Positions 51,744 to 60,286 are shown, counted from the stretch's first letter. The stretch: DNA of 64,000 nt from Candidatus Chloroploca sp. Khr17 (GCF_004138165.1 NZ_RYFF01000012.1:62001-126000); one strand, 5' to 3'. Notes: generated from the letters alone by a model not told the origin. Translations and numbers: made by a program.

Positions 51744-52202
51744 ATGATCAGTTATGAGATCGCAGCCTCGGCAATTACCACAGCTTCACCCGAACAGATC
51801 TTTGCGGTGCTTGATGATTTTGGTCACTGGCCTGCGTGGATGCCCTCGTTTGAGAATGTACGCGTCGATCTACCAGAAGGGGACACGCCAGGGCCAGGCT
51901 ATCGCTTTCGGTTAAGTGGACGGGTGGTGCATGCAGATATGCAGGTGGTTGAATTTACCCCGCTGATCCGGGCAACACGTTTTCGGATCAGCTTTCCGCC
52001 TTTGACCGGGTTCAACCGCTGTCGCATTGTGCCGCTTGAGGATGGACAGTATCGGATCGAACGCGTCGACTCGATTGATTTGCACGGGTTGATTGCAAGC
52101 CTGCTCGATACGACGCAGCGTCGACGCTTCGAGCGGCTCGCTGATGAGTTCCTAGAGGCGCTCAAACAGCGGGTGGAAGGAACGCTCCATGTCAAGCCCT
52201 GA
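51744..52202 (+). CDS. SRPBCC (START/Bet v 1-like) family protein
   Basis: A 152-residue protein of the polyketide cyclase/dehydrase SRPBCC group: AASAITTASPEQIFAVLDDFGHWPAWMPSFENVRVDLPEG is the typical opening, and the C-terminal long helix (QRRRFERLADEFLEALKQRV) closes a hydrophobic ligand cavity. The ligand is unknown. Its end overlaps the next ORF by 14 bases. Confidence 0.85.
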   Translation: MISYEIAASAITTASPEQIFAVLDDFGHWPAWMPSFENVRVDLPEGDTPGPGYRFRLSGRVVHADMQVVEFTPLIRATRFRISFPPLTGFNRCRIVPLEDGQYRIERVDSIDLHGLIASLLDTTQRRRFERLADEFLEALKQRVEGTLHVKP

Positions 52203-52425
52203 GGAGCCACTGGTCAGCCTGGCGGCACTGCTCGAGCGGGCCGGCTTACGAACACCCACCCTGCTGATGCTTGAGGTTTTTGGCCCGATTGATGTGCTGA
52301 GCAGTAACCTGGTACGCTTTGGGATGCCGTTTGTGCGCGGGACAAGGATCGAAGCGGTCGCGACAGCGCTCGGTGAACCTGATGGGTGGGGAGAACTGCG
52401 CCAACTGCTTGCCCGCGATGATTGA
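52189..52425 (+). CDS. Small hypothetical protein
   Basis: A 78-residue protein, leucine-rich with no membrane segment, no recognisable family. ATG 52189 overlaps the SRPBCC gene by 14 bases with AGGAA upstream, so it is likely translated from the same message. The C-terminal TRIEAVATALGEPDGWGELRQLLARDD looks helical. Its stop codon overlaps the -35 box of the next promoter. Confidence 0.55.
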   Translation: MSSPEEPLVSLAALLERAGLRTPTLLMLEVFGPIDVLSSNLVRFGMPFVRGTRIEAVATALGEPDGWGELRQLLARDD

Positions 52426-52450
52426 CAAAGGCTTTGCGCTGGGTTACACT
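52422..52450 (+). promoter_or_regulatory. Promoter TTGACA-N17-TACACT for the membrane/MutL cluster
   Basis: Consensus TTGACA (52422-52427) and TACACT (52445-52450) with the ideal 17-base spacer. Predicted RNA start near 52457, giving a leader of about 58 bases with a small gccag/ctggc hairpin just before the ribosome site. Confidence 0.65.
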
Positions 52451-52514
52451 CATAGCGACGAAACCCTTTTGCATTGTAAAGAATTGCCAGGGAACGTCTG
52501 GCTGGAGTAAACCC

Positions 52515-53315
52515 ATGGCCCTTGCCCCTGAAGCAATCTTGTTGCTCGTCGCCCTGCTGGTGGTCGTGGCAATGACCTGGCTCCATCACGCACGGGCAGT
52601 GAATGGCCGACTTCCACCGCGACGCCCGCTGCCAGCCCTTGATCCGGTGCACACTGCGCTCGGGCGTGGTGCCGAGACGGGACGGGCCGTGCATCTTTCC
52701 CCAGGGGCAAGTGTGCTCGGGGCAGCCGATGGGAGCCGCGCACGTACCGCCGAGTTGCTCGCCGGGTTGCTGGTGGTTCAGCGCATTAGCAGTGAGGCCG
52801 CCCTCAAAGGTGCCCCCATCCTGGTGACATCGGGTGATGTGATTGCCCATAGTGCCATGCGTGGTAGTGTGCGCCAGGCTTATCAGATGGCCGGACAAGC
52901 CCGTGCCTATGACGCATCGTCGGTGCAACTGCTCGCGCATAATGACAAGTTTGCTTATGCAACCGGTGTCGCAACTGTCTATGCCCGTGAACCGCTTGAA
53001 CTCAGCGTGCTCGTCGGTGGCTTTCAACAAGAGTTTTTGCTAGCTGGTGAAGAGGGGGCACAACGCCATCTGCCCCAGGTGGTCGGAACAACCGGTGCGT
53101 CGGCTCTGCCCCTCATGCTGTTGACAACGCCTTCTACGTTGATTGGAGAAGAGGTTTTTGCCGCTGAAGCCTATCTGGATACCGAAGGTTCCGCCCAGGC
53201 ACGTCTGCTAACCCAGGATGGTCTGCGTACCGTGACCATCGTGGTGTTGATCGGTGGGTTGCTCTATAGCTTGCTCCAACCTGTGCTGAATTTGCCTCCG
53301 CTACCATCACCCTGA
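52515..53315 (+). CDS. Bitopic membrane protein, DUF6754-like
   Basis: A 266-residue protein with a membrane segment at each end (ILLLVALLVVVAMTWLHHA at the N terminus; TVTIVVLIGGLLYSLLQPVLNL at the C terminus) and a soluble middle of about 200 residues (LSPGASVLGAADGSRARTAELLAGLLVVQRIS, GDVIAHSAMRGSVRQAYQMAG, FAYATGVATVYAREPLELSVLVGGFQQEFLLAGEEG). I recall the family label DUF6754 for such proteins but cannot verify it. First gene of a five-gene unit; ATG 52515 has CTGGAG upstream. Confidence 0.6.
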   Translation: MALAPEAILLLVALLVVVAMTWLHHARAVNGRLPPRRPLPALDPVHTALGRGAETGRAVHLSPGASVLGAADGSRARTAELLAGLLVVQRISSEAALKGAPILVTSGDVIAHSAMRGSVRQAYQMAGQARAYDASSVQLLAHNDKFAYATGVATVYAREPLELSVLVGGFQQEFLLAGEEGAQRHLPQVVGTTGASALPLMLLTTPSTLIGEEVFAAEAYLDTEGSAQARLLTQDGLRTVTIVVLIGGLLYSLLQPVLNLPPLPSP

Positions 53316-53325
53316 AGCAGATACT

Positions 53326-53991
53326 ATGTCATTGCTGCGCGATGTGAAACGCCTGTTTGCTGTCATGCTCGCCGGAGTCTGTGGGGTGATTGTCCTCATG
53401 GATTTTGCCGGGGGTGAGGGCGCACTTGCAGCCCTGGCAACGCTGCTCGTTGGCTGGGCAGCCGTGCTTACCGCAGTTGCCCTGCTGTTCGGGATCGTGA
53501 GTGTGGCCGGACACCACGTCGGGCGGGTGCGCGAGCAGCACAACGATTGGCACTATAGCTTGGTGTTGATCGTAGGGATGCTGGTGATGCTGGTCGCCGG
53601 CATCTTCTTTCCCCTCCCAGGGCGCGGGGGCCTGGTGCTTCCCGCAAATCTGGCTGAAGTGCCTATTCGGACGGTCTTTCGTGTGATCTATGAGCCAGTT
53701 GCGAGTAGTCTCCTGGCTTTGCTCACCTTTTTTAGCCTGAGTGCCGCCCTACGTTCTGTGCAACAGCGACGCGGCGAGGCTATCGTGATGATTGTGGTGG
53801 CCGCCCTCGTGCTGCTGGCGCAACTGCCCTTGCTCGCAGCAATCCCAATGATTGGCGGTACTCTTCAATGGCTGAATGATGTTGTGGCCGTGGCTGGTGC
53901 CCGAGGCCTGGTCATCGGTGCCGCTCTTGGTGCATTGGTAGCCGGGGTGCGCGTGCTGCTCGGCTTCGATACACCGTATCTCGATCGCTGA
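53326..53991 (+). CDS. Polytopic membrane protein
   Basis: A 221-residue protein with about six membrane segments (LFAVMLAGVCGVIVLMDFAGG, LAALATLLVGWAAVLTAVALLFGIV, LVLIVGMLVMLVAGIFFPLPG and others). The Asp in the first segment and the PLPGRGG loop are the only distinctive features. Function unknown. It starts 10 bases after the preceding gene and ends one base before the next, so the three are clearly cotranscribed. Confidence 0.65.
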   Translation: MSLLRDVKRLFAVMLAGVCGVIVLMDFAGGEGALAALATLLVGWAAVLTAVALLFGIVSVAGHHVGRVREQHNDWHYSLVLIVGMLVMLVAGIFFPLPGRGGLVLPANLAEVPIRTVFRVIYEPVASSLLALLTFFSLSAALRSVQQRRGEAIVMIVVAALVLLAQLPLLAAIPMIGGTLQWLNDVVAVAGARGLVIGAALGALVAGVRVLLGFDTPYLDR

Positions 53992-53992
53992 C

Positions 53993-56900
53993 ATGGAACA
54001 TTTGCCCCCATGGCTTCGTAATGTGTCGCTTCCCGCGAACCCCGCCGCTGAGGTGGAGCTACCTCCACCCCCGCTTCCCCCTGCCAAAGAGCCTGCAGTA
54101 GACCAGATGCCAACATGGTTACGTGAGCTTAAGGCAGAAGTGGCCGAAGATGAGACGACCCGTACAGCAATACCAGAAGCTGATGCCTGGCTGTCTGACT
54201 TCGCTGATCCTCAAGCCGCTCAAGCAACCCTGAGCGCTGATGTCGCTGCTGATCAAAATCCCTTTGATGACCAGGTTCAGGCCCAGAAATCGGGCGTGAA
54301 GTTGCCCTCAGGCGCAACTGAGTGGCTCGTAAGTATGGGTCAGGATCTGGCTGAACCTGATGAGACGAGCGCTGCGCCGCCAACCGATGAAGATGCGCTC
54401 GCCAATGAGGGCATTCCTGATTGGTTGCGCGATCTGACAGAAGAAGAGGTCGCCCGAGCTATCGAGGCCGAAGTCAGTGACCCGTCATTTGAAGCGACTC
54501 ACTTCAGATCTGAAGAGCCATCGCTTGATGTGCTTCCCCCTCCATCCGGGCAACCTGTAGCCCGCGCTGCGCCGCGCAAGCCACTGCCTGACTGGTTGCT
54601 CCCACCAGAACCTGAACTGCCTGAGTCGGATCCTCGCCCAGAACGCAAGGCAAGTGCTGAGGCAGCTAATCTTGCGGCAAGTGCTGAAATTCCAGCATGG
54701 CTCCGCGATATTGCCGAGGAGAGTCCCTCTACGCCAGCAACACCTGTTGATGAGGTACCCGGGTGGCTCCAAGAGGCCGATGCAGGAAACCTGCCCGATT
54801 CCTCGGCTGAACTCTTTGAACAGACTGGGACTGATGATGTCCCTGACTGGCTCCGGGACGATGCTCCCTCCGCACCTCCTGCCACGCCTAAGGCCGAAGT
54901 CGGCGATCTCCCCGACTGGCTGATCTCCGAGCCAGCACAAGAGAGCGCAACTAACCTTGATGTGCCAACGTGGTTGCGTGGTGATGAGGCCGGCCAGGGG
55001 TCGGTTGAGTCTTCGACAGAAGTGGATGTGCCAACCTGGCTGCGTGGTGATGAGGCGAATGCACCTGCAGTGGATGATCATGCAACCGATCTTGCTGTCC
55101 CCGACTGGCTCAGGAACGATCAGCAGACACCCGACGATGAGCCTGACGCTGAAGCCGAGGTTATGCCCGACTGGCTGCAAGATCTGGAGCGTACGCCTCT
55201 CGCCTCTTCCCTTGATCCTGGTGATGTGCCAACCTGGCTCCGCGAGGCCGAGGCCCGAGCTGAATCCGATGAGGTCAATGTAGAGAACCTGTCAGACGCT
55301 GATGCCCAGGCGACGGTCTCTGATGTGCCAACCTGGCTCCGCGAGACGCATAAACCAGTGGACGAAACCACTGACACTGATTGGGAAGCCGGTTCGGTCG
55401 CACAGGTTGAACAGCCAGGCGAAGCTTCGGCATGGCTCGGTGATGCATCGGCTGGTGCAGGCCAACCTGAGGCCATCCAGCCTCCCGAAGATGTTGAAGC
55501 CTGGCTGAGTGATGAAGATGTTCCCCCGGTCGAGGCCCCTGCATGGCTGAGTAAGGCTGAAACATCATCGGCTGACGATCAGGTTCCTGAGTGGCTGCGT
55601 GAAGATCTGGCTGAAACCACCCGTGCCGACTCAGCACACACTGATGATGTGCTCGCATGGCTGCAAGATGAGCCAGCCACCCCCGCAGCGGCAACCCCTG
55701 ACTGGCTCAGTGAACCAGATGATGCCTCCGAGGAGATTCCAGCGTGGCTCAGGCAAGAGGCACCAGCCGCCGAGGTAAAGCCACCCACAGATGCGGATAT
55801 TCCGACCTGGCTCCGTGAGGTGATCGCGCCAGTTGAAGCAAGCCTTAGGGAAGAGGCGCTTCAGGCGAGCGGGGAGGTGCCTGAGCCTGATGCCGAGGTG
55901 CCTTCCTGGCTCCGTGAAGCCGTTTCAGCCGATGATGAATCTGATGAGAAAGCTACATCAGGTTGGCAGCAAGAGGCTGACGCGCCCCCGCCCGGTGGCA
56001 TGCCCTCCTGGCTCGAAGACGTCGACGCGGCCCCCGAGGATAGCGCGGCCCCCGCCCGGCAACAACCGCCCGAACCCGCGCCGCCCCCACCCGGCGGCAT
56101 GCCCTCCTGGCTCGAAGACGTCGACGCGACACCGGATGATAGCGCGGCCCCCGCGTGGCTCCAGACAAAAGACGAAGCGCCTGGAAAAGCGTCAGTTGAT
56201 GATGCACCGGCATGGTTGCGCGACGAGACAAGCACACCGACGTCGACTGGCGAACGTGCGCTGCCGTCGAGTGAAGTGCCACCGTGGCTTCGGGATGAAG
56301 AGGACGAAGCTGGTCTTATCTCAGATAAAGATGCGAATCTGGCCCCATGGTTACGTGGGCTTGGCAATGAACCCGAAAGCCCGCCGAGCGCAGAACCACT
56401 CGCGAACCTCGGCACAGCAGAGAGCGAAAGTGGCGATGAAGACACCTTCTTGGAAGGTGCCGAATTGCCCCGCTGGCTCCGCCCATCAGAGTCAGAACGT
56501 CCGGAGCCAGCGAGTGATCCGGTACCTGCGACGCAACTCGACTGGCTGAAGCAACTCGGGATTGTTGATAGTGATGGTGATTCAGTCAATCTTGTTGAAC
56601 CGATCATAGAGCAAGGGTCGCGCAGGCCCGCCATGGTGCGCAAGCGCAGCGAGCAGCAACTCACCGATATGGCGCTCCTTGCAAGCATTGTTGCGTCACC
56701 CTACCCTGAGCCTGTGGCCCCTGCGGAATCATTGCCCCCGACGCGCTGGCAACGCATTGGCGTTGAGCGGATCTTGTATAGCCTTCTGGTCGTTGCCTTG
56801 CTTGTGGCCCTGATCTTCCCCAGTATAACAACACCGCTACAGAGTGAGGTGCCAATCAGTCCAGAGGTGGCCGAACTTGGCGTCCTGCTTGACGGCCTCG

Positions 56901-57628
56901 ATGACGAGGATGTGGTGCTGGTAGCCTATGAATGGGCCGCTCAACGAAGTGCCGAACTGCGACCACTCGAAGCAGCCGTGATGCAACGGTTGATCGCCAA
57001 GCGCACAAAACTCATTCTGGTCAGCACTGACCTGCAGGGAACGCTACTCTCGTTTGATCTGATCGAGCCATTGCGCGAGGCTGGCTATAATAACGAGAAT
57101 GGCATCCCGCTCGGGGGCCGTGATTATGTATTGCTTGGTTATCGCCCTGGAGGTGATCTGGCCTTACGACAACTGGCGCAAGATCTTCGAGGGCAACTGC
57201 AGTCAGATTTTGACGGCAACGATGCCTCGCAGAGTCTGGTGGCAAATAATCCTGACGGAACCCCGCGCATCAGCACCCTGGATGATCTTGCGATGATCCT
57301 GGTGCTGGCCGATGAAGCGCAGGATGTACAAGCGTGGATGGAGCAGGTACACCGCGCTGCGCCCGAGGTTCCGATCACCTTCTTGCTTCCCAACGAGGCC
57401 CAACCGTTGGCGCAACCCTATCTCCGCCTCCCCACAGTCTATCATCTGGCAGGGCAACAGGGTGCGGTGGCCTTGCAGGCGACCGATGCTGATGGCGATA
57501 GTGCGACGATCGCAGCAACAACTGGGCAACTCTCTTTTGCGGTCGTTGTGTTCCTCGTTTTGCTGGCCGGTGGGGCCCTCATCTCGTTGCGAACACGCCC
57601 CGGGCGACCGAAGGGAGACAACTCATGA
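53993..57628 (+). CDS. Giant PxWLR-repeat transmembrane protein
   Basis: A 1,211-residue protein of unknown family. Residues 1-860 are acidic (Glu/Asp/Ala/Pro), apparently disordered, and carry more than 30 copies of a short motif, mostly [VIMLA]P[DTASE]WL[RQSE][DEG], spaced about 25 residues apart from PPWLRN near residue 5 to LDWLKQLG near 852. A membrane segment (ILYSLLVVALLVALIFPSI) follows near 925-945, then about 235 residues of a folded domain (VVLVAYEWAAQRSAELRPL, LILVSTDLQGTLLSFDLIEPL, YVLLGYRPGGDLALRQLAQDL), then a last segment near 1181-1200 and a basic tail. Positive charges place both ends inside. Two repeat units are a recent 99-base duplication. It overlaps the next gene by four bases. 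Confidence 0.8.
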   Translation: MEHLPPWLRNVSLPANPAAEVELPPPPLPPAKEPAVDQMPTWLRELKAEVAEDETTRTAIPEADAWLSDFADPQAAQATLSADVAADQNPFDDQVQAQKSGVKLPSGATEWLVSMGQDLAEPDETSAAPPTDEDALANEGIPDWLRDLTEEEVARAIEAEVSDPSFEATHFRSEEPSLDVLPPPSGQPVARAAPRKPLPDWLLPPEPELPESDPRPERKASAEAANLAASAEIPAWLRDIAEESPSTPATPVDEVPGWLQEADAGNLPDSSAELFEQTGTDDVPDWLRDDAPSAPPATPKAEVGDLPDWLISEPAQESATNLDVPTWLRGDEAGQGSVESSTEVDVPTWLRGDEANAPAVDDHATDLAVPDWLRNDQQTPDDEPDAEAEVMPDWLQDLERTPLASSLDPGDVPTWLREAEARAESDEVNVENLSDADAQATVSDVPTWLRETHKPVDETTDTDWEAGSVAQVEQPGEASAWLGDASAGAGQPEAIQPPEDVEAWLSDEDVPPVEAPAWLSKAETSSADDQVPEWLREDLAETTRADSAHTDDVLAWLQDEPATPAAATPDWLSEPDDASEEIPAWLRQEAPAAEVKPPTDADIPTWLREVIAPVEASLREEALQASGEVPEPDAEVPSWLREAVSADDESDEKATSGWQQEADAPPPGGMPSWLEDVDAAPEDSAAPARQQPPEPAPPPPGGMPSWLEDVDATPDDSAAPAWLQTKDEAPGKASVDDAPAWLRDETSTPTSTGERALPSSEVPPWLRDEEDEAGLISDKDANLAPWLRGLGNEPESPPSAEPLANLGTAESESGDEDTFLEGAELPRWLRPSESERPEPASDPVPATQLDWLKQLGIVDSDGDSVNLVEPIIEQGSRRPAMVRKRSEQQLTDMALLASIVASPYPEPVAPAESLPPTRWQRIGVERILYSLLVVALLVALIFPSITTPLQSEVPISPEVAELGVLLDGLDDEDVVLVAYEWAAQRSAELRPLEAAVMQRLIAKRTKLILVSTDLQGTLLSFDLIEPLREAGYNNENGIPLGGRDYVLLGYRPGGDLALRQLAQDLRGQLQSDFDGNDASQSLVANNPDGTPRISTLDDLAMILVLADEAQDVQAWMEQVHRAAPEVPITFLLPNEAQPLAQPYLRLPTVYHLAGQQGAVALQATDADGDSATIAATTGQLSFAVVVFLVLLAGGALISLRTRPGRPKGDNS

Positions 57629-58287
57629 GTGGTGACGCCATAGTAACGCTGATCAGCGGGTTGATTGCGGTGAGCCTGACGTTGCTCGTCTTTAGTCGCC
57701 TGCTTGGCGATAACCCGGCCTTTCGGATGGTGCAATATCTTTTTGTAGGGCTTTCGCTGGGCTACGCGTTTGTGGTGGTCTACCATCAGATCCTGCGTCC
57801 CAATACGCTCGCGATCCTCAGTGATCTGAACAATCCATCAGGCCTGACGCTCCGCCTCGTACCCTGGTTCCTTGCCTTGCTCTTGCTGCCTCGCCTCTTT
57901 GGACGGCAGAAACTTTCGTGGCTAGCGAATATTCCGCTCGCGATCCTCTTCGGCGTGGGAACCGCGCTCGCAGTTGGCGGGGCCATCGTCGGGACGCTGG
58001 TACCACAGGTACTCGACAGCATCCGACCAACCGGGAGCGATCCAGGGCAAGTGTTCGGCGCTGTCTTGCTTGTCCTCGGGGTTGTGGTAACCCTGAGCTA
58101 TTTTTACTTCACCCTTGCCCCCACGACACGATCGGGCCAATTCGTCAAAAGAAGCGCACAACTGGGGCGCTGGTTCTTGATCGTGGCGTTTGGTTTCTTT
58201 CTGGCAGGCGGGTTGCTCACGTACCTCACGGCCCTGAATGAACGGCTAGAATTTATTGTCACTTGGCTCCGCGCCCCCCTTGGCTAG
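57625..58287 (+). CDS. Polytopic membrane protein
   Basis: A 220-residue protein with about six or seven membrane segments (VTLISGLIAVSLTLLVFSRLLG, YLFVGLSLGYAFVVVYHQIL, LVPWFLALLLLPRLFG, IPLAILFGVGTALAVGGAIVGTLV, AVLLVLGVVVTLSYFYFTL, FLIVAFGFFLAGGLLTYLTAL). The ATG overlaps the stop of the WLR-repeat gene (ATGA), so it is translationally coupled and probably acts with it. No recognised family. Confidence 0.7.
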   Translation: MSGDAIVTLISGLIAVSLTLLVFSRLLGDNPAFRMVQYLFVGLSLGYAFVVVYHQILRPNTLAILSDLNNPSGLTLRLVPWFLALLLLPRLFGRQKLSWLANIPLAILFGVGTALAVGGAIVGTLVPQVLDSIRPTGSDPGQVFGAVLLVLGVVVTLSYFYFTLAPTTRSGQFVKRSAQLGRWFLIVAFGFFLAGGLLTYLTALNERLEFIVTWLRAPLG

Positions 58288-58378
58288 AACGGTCAGGGGG
58301 AGAGGCGTAGACGAGTTGCGGTTTTCTGTGTGATCCCGAGCGCGAAGACATCTGCGCGGGGGCGACAAGCGAGAGAGT

Positions 58379-60286
58379 ATGGCAGAGATAACGGGCGCAA
58401 TGCTTATTGCTGAGATCGGCAGCGTGATCACGCGTGTGACGCTGATTGATGAGGTCGAAGGCGATTATCGCATGATCGGCCATGCCGAGACCAACACAAC
58501 GGCCGAGCCACCGTTTGGCAATGTCTTCTATGGCTTGCTCGAAGCAACCAGACAGATCGGTAAAATGACCGGGCGTCAACTGGTACAAGACAATCAGTTG
58601 CTGATGCCACAAAAGAGTACCTACGACGGCGTGTCCCATCTGCTTGTGGTGACAAGTGCCGCTGGTGCGATGCGAATGGTGATTACCGCAATTGCCAGCG
58701 ATGTCTCGGCGCACCATGCGTTGCATGCGAGTCACGCCACCTATACCAACGTGATTCAGGTACTTACCCTGGATGCGAGCAGCGGGCAAAGTGGATTGGC
58801 CCCAACCCAACGCTCGTGGATCGATGATCAGATCGATCAATTGCTTCAGATCGAACCGGAGGTCATTGTGCTTGCCGGTGGTCTAGAGGGTGGGGCGGTA
58901 GAAGCGGTGACGCGCCTGGCTCATATTGTGCGCCTGATCGCAACAAAAAGCGGCGTTGATGTGAATGGGCAATATCAACCCGAGGTGACCGCACGGCCAG
59001 TCATTTATGCTGGCAATAGCGCGGCCCGCGAAGCCGTGAGCGAGATTTTGCACGAACGCGCCGAGGTCGTGCATGTAGCAAATCTCTGCCCCGCCCTTGA
59101 TCGGGCTGACCTGGCCCCGACTCAGCAGGAACTCGCCAAGCTCTATGAACGCAAGATCTTGCCTTCGCTCGCCGGGCTGACGAATCTGCAGCGGCTGAGC
59201 GATGTGCCTGTGCGTACGGTCTGCGCGGTGCAAGGTGTCATGACACGCTTTCTCGCCGAACGCACCGGGCGCAGCGTGCTCACGCTGGACACCGGGGCTG
59301 CCGCAACAGCGGCTTTTTATGCCTCACCCGGACACTTTATTCCGACGGTGCTCGGAACCATCGGAACCGTCTATGGCTTGCCTGAGTTGATGGCAACGCA
59401 AGGCGTCGCGACGCTTGCCCGCTGGCTCCCCTTTGCCATTGCGACAAGCGACGTCAGTGAGCAACTGCTCAACCGAACCTTGCGACCCTATCTCTTGCCC
59501 GCGAGTCGCGACGATGTCTACCTGGCCCATGCGATTGCCTGCGAGGCTCTGCGTACGACACTTGCCAAGCTGCGCGAGCAGACCAGTCTTGATGCCGTCG
59601 ACTGGATTATTGCCGGGGGCGGGATTCTTGCCCATGCCCCCCAGCCAGGCCTCGCTCTCTTGACCATCCTAGATGCGCTGGAGCCAATGGGCACCTCGGA
59701 TCAGCCGATCATTGATGTTCATCTCGATACGCTGGGCTTGTTAGTTACCGCGGGGGCGATCGCCGAATTCAACCCTGAGGCAGCGTTGACTCTGGTTGAT
59801 CATGATCTGCTGTCCAATGTCCCCCTGGCACGCGTGGTCACCCTGCTTGGTGAAGGGCCGAGCGACACGGTAGCTGCCGAGGTGGAACTGAAGGTTGTTG
59901 GAGGCGGAACGGAACGCATCGAGGTCAAACATGGCACGCTTGCACGCCTCCCACTGCCGCAGGGTCGCTACGGCCAATTGACGATCCGCCCTGCGGCTGG
60001 TGTGCGGATCGGGCTCCTTGAACCAGGCGAAACGATTGCCTCGGACGGGGGCGAAATTGCAGGGAGTGCGTTAGGTGTCGTCATTGACGCGCGCGGGCGT
60101 CCATTGCGCCTTGCCGATGATCCGCATGCGCGACACGAACAGATCAGCGCGTGGCTGATCGCACTGAATGTCGAGCGCGACCCGGTAGCCGCAACCAGCG
60201 GCCTCCCAAGCAAGCCAGAAGCAGTCACGACGGTAGCGGAAACGACCATAGAAGAAGCGCCACCCGTCAGCGCTGAAGAAGCATAA
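58379..60286 (+). CDS. MutL/GlmL-like ASKHA ATPase
   Basis: A 635-residue protein related to MutL/GlmL, the ASKHA-fold ATPase associated with glutamate mutase (a reactivating factor in that setting). It has an N-terminal phosphate-binding strand pair (LIAEIGSVITRVTLIDEVEG), VIVLAGGLEGGAVEAV, RPVIYAGNSAAREAV and a second glycine motif VLTLDTGAAATAAFYA, with WIIAGGGILAHAPQPG later. The last 150 residues form a beta-rich extension. No glutamate mutase S or E subunit, and no B12 gene, is in the window, so a different partner is likely, perhaps the membrane proteins encoded just before it. It begins 91 bases after them. Confidence 0.75.
   Translation: MAEITGAMLIAEIGSVITRVTLIDEVEGDYRMIGHAETNTTAEPPFGNVFYGLLEATRQIGKMTGRQLVQDNQLLMPQKSTYDGVSHLLVVTSAAGAMRMVITAIASDVSAHHALHASHATYTNVIQVLTLDASSGQSGLAPTQRSWIDDQIDQLLQIEPEVIVLAGGLEGGAVEAVTRLAHIVRLIATKSGVDVNGQYQPEVTARPVIYAGNSAAREAVSEILHERAEVVHVANLCPALDRADLAPTQQELAKLYERKILPSLAGLTNLQRLSDVPVRTVCAVQGVMTRFLAERTGRSVLTLDTGAAATAAFYASPGHFIPTVLGTIGTVYGLPELMATQGVATLARWLPFAIATSDVSEQLLNRTLRPYLLPASRDDVYLAHAIACEALRTTLAKLREQTSLDAVDWIIAGGGILAHAPQPGLALLTILDALEPMGTSDQPIIDVHLDTLGLLVTAGAIAEFNPEAALTLVDHDLLSNVPLARVVTLLGEGPSDTVAAEVELKVVGGGTERIEVKHGTLARLPLPQGRYGQLTIRPAAGVRIGLLEPGETIASDGGEIAGSALGVVIDARGRPLRLADDPHARHEQISAWLIALNVERDPVAATSGLPSKPEAVTTVAETTIEEAPPVSAEEA

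Follow-up and report, generated by a model that had tools for sequence, protein, structure and literature searches.

Five adjacent genes on one strand of a 64,000-nt stretch of the Candidatus Chloroploca sp. Khr17 genome (GCF_004138165.1 NZ_RYFF01000012.1:62001-126000; hereafter the window, within which all coordinates are counted) form a gene set that, judged from sequence comparison, is real and deeply conserved. The genes, here named A to E, encode a DUF6754 protein (A), two polytopic membrane proteins (B and D), a protein with a long tail of repeated tryptophan-leucine (WL) motifs, many of them followed by arginine (WLR) (C), and a MutL-type ASKHA protein (E). The first four are a separate module that is far older than the WLR tail. 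We propose, with a probability of roughly 0.4, that A to D form a membrane complex with E and a sixth protein, F, as cytosolic partners, and that the tail docks E, which would act as a clamp or switch. The gene set, its order and co-inheritance, the topology signals, the enrichment and constraint of the motif and the degeneration of motifs in E are directly supported by the comparisons presented here.

Gene order and co-inheritance

The five open reading frames (ORFs) run in one direction as a single block, with spacings of 10 bases and 1 base, a 4-base overlap and a 91-base gap. Upstream of A is a sigma-70 type promoter, TTGACA-N17-TACACT (52422-52450, + strand, as for the genes and their parts below); 26 of 29 relatives, drawn from four families of the host order, have kept it. 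The locus had been singled out from the sequence of the window (the original prediction) as a cluster built around the WLR protein and transcribed from one promoter, and both this promoter and the first three intergenic distances were recovered on re-measurement. The position given as the start of the cluster, 52422, belongs to the -35 box and not to a gene, the ATG of gene A being at 52515.

Relatives within the order keep the arrangement and orientation of A-B-C-D-E wherever their contigs are of sufficient length. Outside the order, the five genes are in order on 17 of 20 Chloroflexota contigs inspected around DUF6754 matches; two of the other three reach the contig edge after A-C (L073) and A-D (L086), and the third (L082) has only A and B. 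In a sample of 301 genomes from the phylum, DUF6754 was found in 66 genomes, 64 of which also have MutL (a count from two listings). A 98% complete genome of the host order (G027) is without A, C, E and F together, and a 99% complete genome from the phylum sample (G254) is without A and E. The five genes are not scattered in relatives, and the envelope-associated set of the original prediction stands as real, conserved and co-inherited.

When one DUF6754 pattern was scanned across 84,980 species genomes, 422 relatives were retrieved and 80 were kept for examination, including Methanomethylicota and Culexarchaea. The order A-B-C-D recurs in Bacillota, Planctomycetota, Elusimicrobia, WOR-3 and archaea, and in many cases E-F are next to it or close by. 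The layout is A-B-C-D-E-F in Bacillota and E-F-A-B-C-D, then a second A-B-C-D, in Planctomycetota, while WOR-3, Elusimicrobia and Bathyarchaeota have tandem or divergent A-B-C-D copies. Outside Chloroflexota, A-D have no conserved functional neighbours beyond E, F and duplicate A-D copies. An order shared by Chloroflexota, Bacillota, Planctomycetota and archaea, and genes that are lost jointly, make it likely that the module does something basic. No known kind of system was found that matches the gene set, which is a statement on likeness and not on function, and a search for a defence role of A-F gave no PADLOC protein-model match at E<=0.1.

Seven loci from several phyla have A-B-C-D as tandem or divergent double copies, suggesting that paralogous subunits form heteromeric complexes. 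One further locus reads E-F-A-B, then three C-type genes, D and a fourth C-type gene.

The WL-repeat tail and the core of C

Gene C (53993-57628) encodes 1,211 residues, the length originally reported for the WLR protein, and has no Pfam or NCBIfam family. Residues 1-855 (53993-56557) form an acidic, disordered-looking tail with a net charge of -148 and 35 tryptophans. It contains 33 WL, 26 PxWL, 18 WLR and 17 PxWLR motifs, compared with means of 3.0, 0.4, 0.11 and 0.016 in composition shuffles; this enrichment is far beyond chance. The copies follow the consensus [DE]-[VIALM]-P-x-W-L-R-[DE] and are alike rather than identical, which corrects the earlier count of more than 30 identical tryptophan motifs. 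Between the window and a congeneric species, the share of differing residues is 6% in the motifs, 19% in the linkers and 7% in the folded core. The low divergence of the motifs relative to the linkers shows that the motif is under purifying selection. Across the 6.4-Mb genome, a DNA pattern for PxWLR gave one dense cluster among the sites listed, located in C, and C was the sole protein matched in a protein search with the motif. Within the tail there is also a two-copy 99-bp tandem repeat (55983-56181), a duplication that added motif copies.

A transmembrane (TM) helix follows the tail and has positive residues on its N-terminal side. Based on these positive-inside signals, the tail is predicted to be cytosolic and the core domain between the TM helices to lie outside. 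This agrees with the cytosolic placement of the motifs in the original prediction, and a cytosolic tail is well suited to the role of multivalent docking scaffold suggested there. Docking of a partner protein by the tail is plausible from these sequence features.

The ancestral core, residues 915-1211 (56735-57625), consists of a TM helix, an extracytoplasmic Rossmann-like domain and a second TM helix (AlphaFold predicted local distance difference test (pLDDT) score 91.5). Among the Chloroflexota proteins inspected, the number of tail motifs ranges from 0 to 61 per C. C proteins of the other phyla examined usually have about 250-345 residues and no WL tail. The tail is therefore an addition, made in Chloroflexota, to an ancestral protein of TM-domain-TM type, and, contrary to the original description, it is not what the cluster is built around. 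The best PDB fold for the core is 1kjn (MT0777, from structural genomics; Z=10.0, root-mean-square deviation (rmsd) 2.9 over 136 residues), which at 9% identity shares a common fold only and permits no functional inference. The same applies to CODH/ACS epsilon-like Rossmann folds (Z 8.6, rmsd 3.2 over 146 residues), again a common fold only.

The membrane proteins A, B and D

Gene A (52515-53315, 266 residues) is a clear member of the DUF6754 family (PF20539, E=2.4e-33; 115.8 bits against a hidden Markov model cut-off of 27). The family is uncharacterised. The present analysis linked it to B, C, D, E and F, and our literature search returned no paper naming DUF6754. A had been described as bitopic; TM helices instead flank a predicted cytosolic alpha/beta Rossmann-like domain at both ends (AlphaFold pLDDT 92.8). 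The best PDB fold is SIRT5 (Z 10.4, rmsd 3.7 over 148 residues), which ties with many NAD-binding folds. Foldseek searches with A and with the C core gave nothing at E<=0.001, only common Rossmann folds, and the fold matches of both models, which are confident, are to common folds and give no function. A and C were considered as paralogues, which is unsupported (hhalign probability 1.2%).

Genes B (53326-53991, 221 residues) and D (57625-58287, 220 residues) each have about six predicted TM helices, in line with their earlier description as polytopic. B has a conserved C-terminus, LLGFDTPYLDR, and no Pfam family match. The earlier view had three of the five as unknown membrane proteins; A, as a DUF6754 member, is not wholly unknown. 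A WLR at the C-terminus of D was considered as an extra motif copy; it is present in D of the window and is not conserved. In a deltaproteobacterium, a DUF6754 protein (locus L153, 6577-9735) is 1,053 residues long and carries HEAT repeats in its N-terminal part.

E is a degenerate MutL-type ASKHA protein

Gene E (58379-60286) encodes a long form of 635 residues with a C-terminal extension. It matches PF13941 (MutL; E=9.6e-64, 216 bits against a cut-off of 27), as expected for the ASKHA protein of MutL/GlmL type that had been predicted. It shares the whole 450-position domain with this family, which includes GlmL and the ornithine-degradation protein Or-4, and differs from it in at least 150 extra residues, in degenerate phosphate motifs and in having no glutamate mutase partner in the order. 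MutL is present in 40 of 41 order genomes, in one copy each and in the cassette, bar a few split or weak matches. A PDB sequence search with E gave no match.

We compared the nucleotide-binding motifs in an alignment of 93 E proteins. In the window, the phosphate-1 motif LIAEIGSVITR (58403-58450) has Glu for the canonical Asp, the phosphate-2 motif LTLDTGAAATAAF (59273-59323; canonical VDIGGATTD) has lost the second Asp, and the adenosine motif WIIAGGGILAHAP (59603-59641) is largely kept. With AEIGSVITR and LDTGAAATA, E of the window is without the intact phosphate-1 and phosphate-2 aspartates of an ASKHA ATPase. Bacillota retain the canonical DCGSTTTK and VDIGGATTD, and Planctomycetota retain VDIGGATTD. 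In E of the Chloroflexota cassettes the first phosphate-2 Asp is mostly retained and the second is lost, and in the host family Glu replaces the phosphate-1 Asp in nearly all proteins (AEIGS). From these motifs, nucleotide binding may remain, and efficient hydrolysis is doubtful. The loss of the second phosphate-2 Asp therefore casts doubt on the ATPase-driven assembly of the original prediction.

The family name could also point to a GlmL-type chaperone of a B12-dependent mutase, with its position here incidental. PF13941 membership and weak NCBIfam matches to GlmL and Or-4 fit such a role, but these matches (76 and 86 bits) are far under the equivalog cut-offs of 475 and 600, and E belongs to neither equivalog. 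Glutamate mutase E (PF06368) is above its cut-off in none of the 41 order genomes. These two results make a glutamate-mutase reading of MutL unlikely. In addition, a true short GlmL is found beside the long form in two genomes (G203 and G313), and E accompanies A-D or a WL protein at most loci. Overall, we regard the chaperone role as very improbable.

The sixth gene, F

F encodes about 360 residues with weak RnfC-like barrel-sandwich and KOW signals, and comes after E at most distant loci. Of the 41 genomes of the host order, 39 have F as a single-copy gene away from the cassette, and G027 and G040 (80% complete) have none. In the window genome, F is located beyond a group of dcw genes, which from their sequences we take to be murG, ftsW, murD, mraY and others, on the contig carrying ftsZ and ftsA. 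In the two other order genomes read (G030 and G013) it adjoins ATP synthase genes. A receiver-domain-like gene of the response-regulator type flanks F in all three order genomes inspected.

A proposed docking model and its alternatives

In the proposed model, A-D would be the subunits of an ancient four-protein membrane complex, with B and D as its polytopic core, the Rossmann-like domain of A facing the cytosol and that of C facing outside. E and the barrel-sandwich-like F, which is encoded elsewhere in the genome, would partner it from the cytosol. In Chloroflexota, the cytosolic N-terminus of C would have grown into the disordered acidic tail, with up to 61 copies of [DE]-h-P-x-W-L, as a multivalent docking array that keeps many copies of E at the membrane. 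E held in this way may bind nucleotide and serve as a clamp or switch instead of a hydrolysing motor, since its degenerate phosphate motifs argue against turnover-driven work. We infer the physical assembly, the part of E as motif receptor and the switch role.

The choice of E as receptor comes from gene neighbourhood. We inspected 13 Chloroflexota loci without a DUF6754 match. At eight, the gene directly upstream of E encodes a zinc-ribbon WL-repeat protein that has several P-x-W-[LM]-R motifs and lacks a C-type core, and at two more a zinc-ribbon protein with a single motif takes this place. The MutL-like gene is therefore not confined to loci without a WLR protein, as E adjoins a WL-motif protein even without DUF6754. 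As the constant genomic partner of WL motifs, E is the leading candidate receptor.

Several points weigh against this model. A-D without a WL tail in many phyla imply that the tail is dispensable for the basic function, and the complex genes also persist tailless in some Chloroflexota (family f16, loci L085-L088). E is degenerate in tailed and tailless Chloroflexota, and its degeneration is therefore not tied to the repeats. F, which is linked to E in other classes too, could be the receptor there. Alternatively, the tail may be a self-associating or space-filling acidic brush, in which Trp-Leu stickers cluster the complex with no dedicated receptor. The sticker-and-spacer layout, with a W-L every 14-57 residues and the strong negative charge, is consistent with this, as is the wide range of copy number between lineages. 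However, the position-specific preference for Pro, acidic residues and Arg around W-L, together with the constraint on the motif, exceeds what stickers need, and single-motif versions survive beside E. We consider the brush unlikely.

Somewhat less likely again is that the tail is an array of mimics of the FtsZ C-terminal peptide that docks the complex on FtsA and ties it to the divisome. FtsZ uses this peptide for FtsA, ZipA and others (PMC8669495). In most order genomes FtsZ ends in DLDIPPFLRNR, of which the D-[VI]-P-x-W-L-R of the tail is a Trp version, and the tail carries the D-I/V-P-x-F/W-L-R motif of this peptide class, with weaker agreement in other lineages. A matrix built from the window motifs with the aromatic position masked gave the genome's own FtsZ tail 14.2 bits, against a median of 13.2 for the tail motifs; all 13,972 background aromatic sites scored below 14.2 bits. 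Based on the DNA pattern D-[IVM]-P-x-[FWCL]-[LF]-[RS], the whole genome has 10 sites (2 for the reversed control): six in C, one in the FtsZ tail, one in an ABC permease and two in short frames without coding sign. FtsA is present in 41 of 41 order genomes, F is near dcw genes in the window genome, and G027, which is without the cassette, has altered FtsZ tails. SepF, considered as a receptor, is above its cut-off in none of the 41. FtsA is itself an ASKHA protein, and the divisome pair and the cassette each combine an ASKHA protein with a D-I/V-P-x-aromatic-L-R peptide borne on a disordered linker. They differ in that here a membrane protein carries the peptide in repeated form, with Trp for Phe, and in that E is of the MutL type with FtsA separately present. 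On the other side, the idea arose after the motif had been seen, and per-site p-values are 5e-5 to 1e-3 in other lineages, where position +2 is often not Arg, compared with 2e-6 here. An acidic residue follows the motif in the tail, where FtsZ has a basic or polar one, and no cassette gene is within a division cluster. Because the resemblance is weaker elsewhere and post hoc, we keep the FtsZ link, with its hypothetical binding to FtsA, as a rival to docking of E. A broader version, in which A-F are an undescribed six-protein envelope machine of bacteria and archaea and C of the Chloroflexales mimics the FtsZ peptide in dozens of copies, the machine thereby being recruited to or competing at the division site via FtsA, seems to us more doubtful still.

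The WL-repeat tail is a concrete handle for finding the partner. If this is FtsA or E, it would open the Chloroflexota division machinery or a new class of ASKHA-membrane complex.

Of the two FtsZ paralogues in the window genome, one has the tail DIPPFLRNR and the other DIPPFLKRF. G027 has two FtsZ genes with the C-termini VDIPVFVRRN and ISLPPAIRHRR instead of LDIPPFLRNR. The ABC permease with the FtsZ-like pattern is of the amino-acid type, carries IDVPGWLRKNL at its N-terminus and is the only other likely coding copy. FtsZ mimicry across the phylum was considered and is unsupported, the resemblance being lineage-limited.

Upstream neighbours

An ORF of 78 residues (MSSPEEPLVSLAALLERAG...; 52189-52425) precedes the cassette, and its stop codon overlaps the -35 box of the promoter; the frame is present in six loci. 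Further upstream, a Polyketide_cyc2 (START-like) protein is encoded at 51744-52202. About a dozen relatives likewise have it upstream of the cassette, which marks it as a lineage-specific neighbour.

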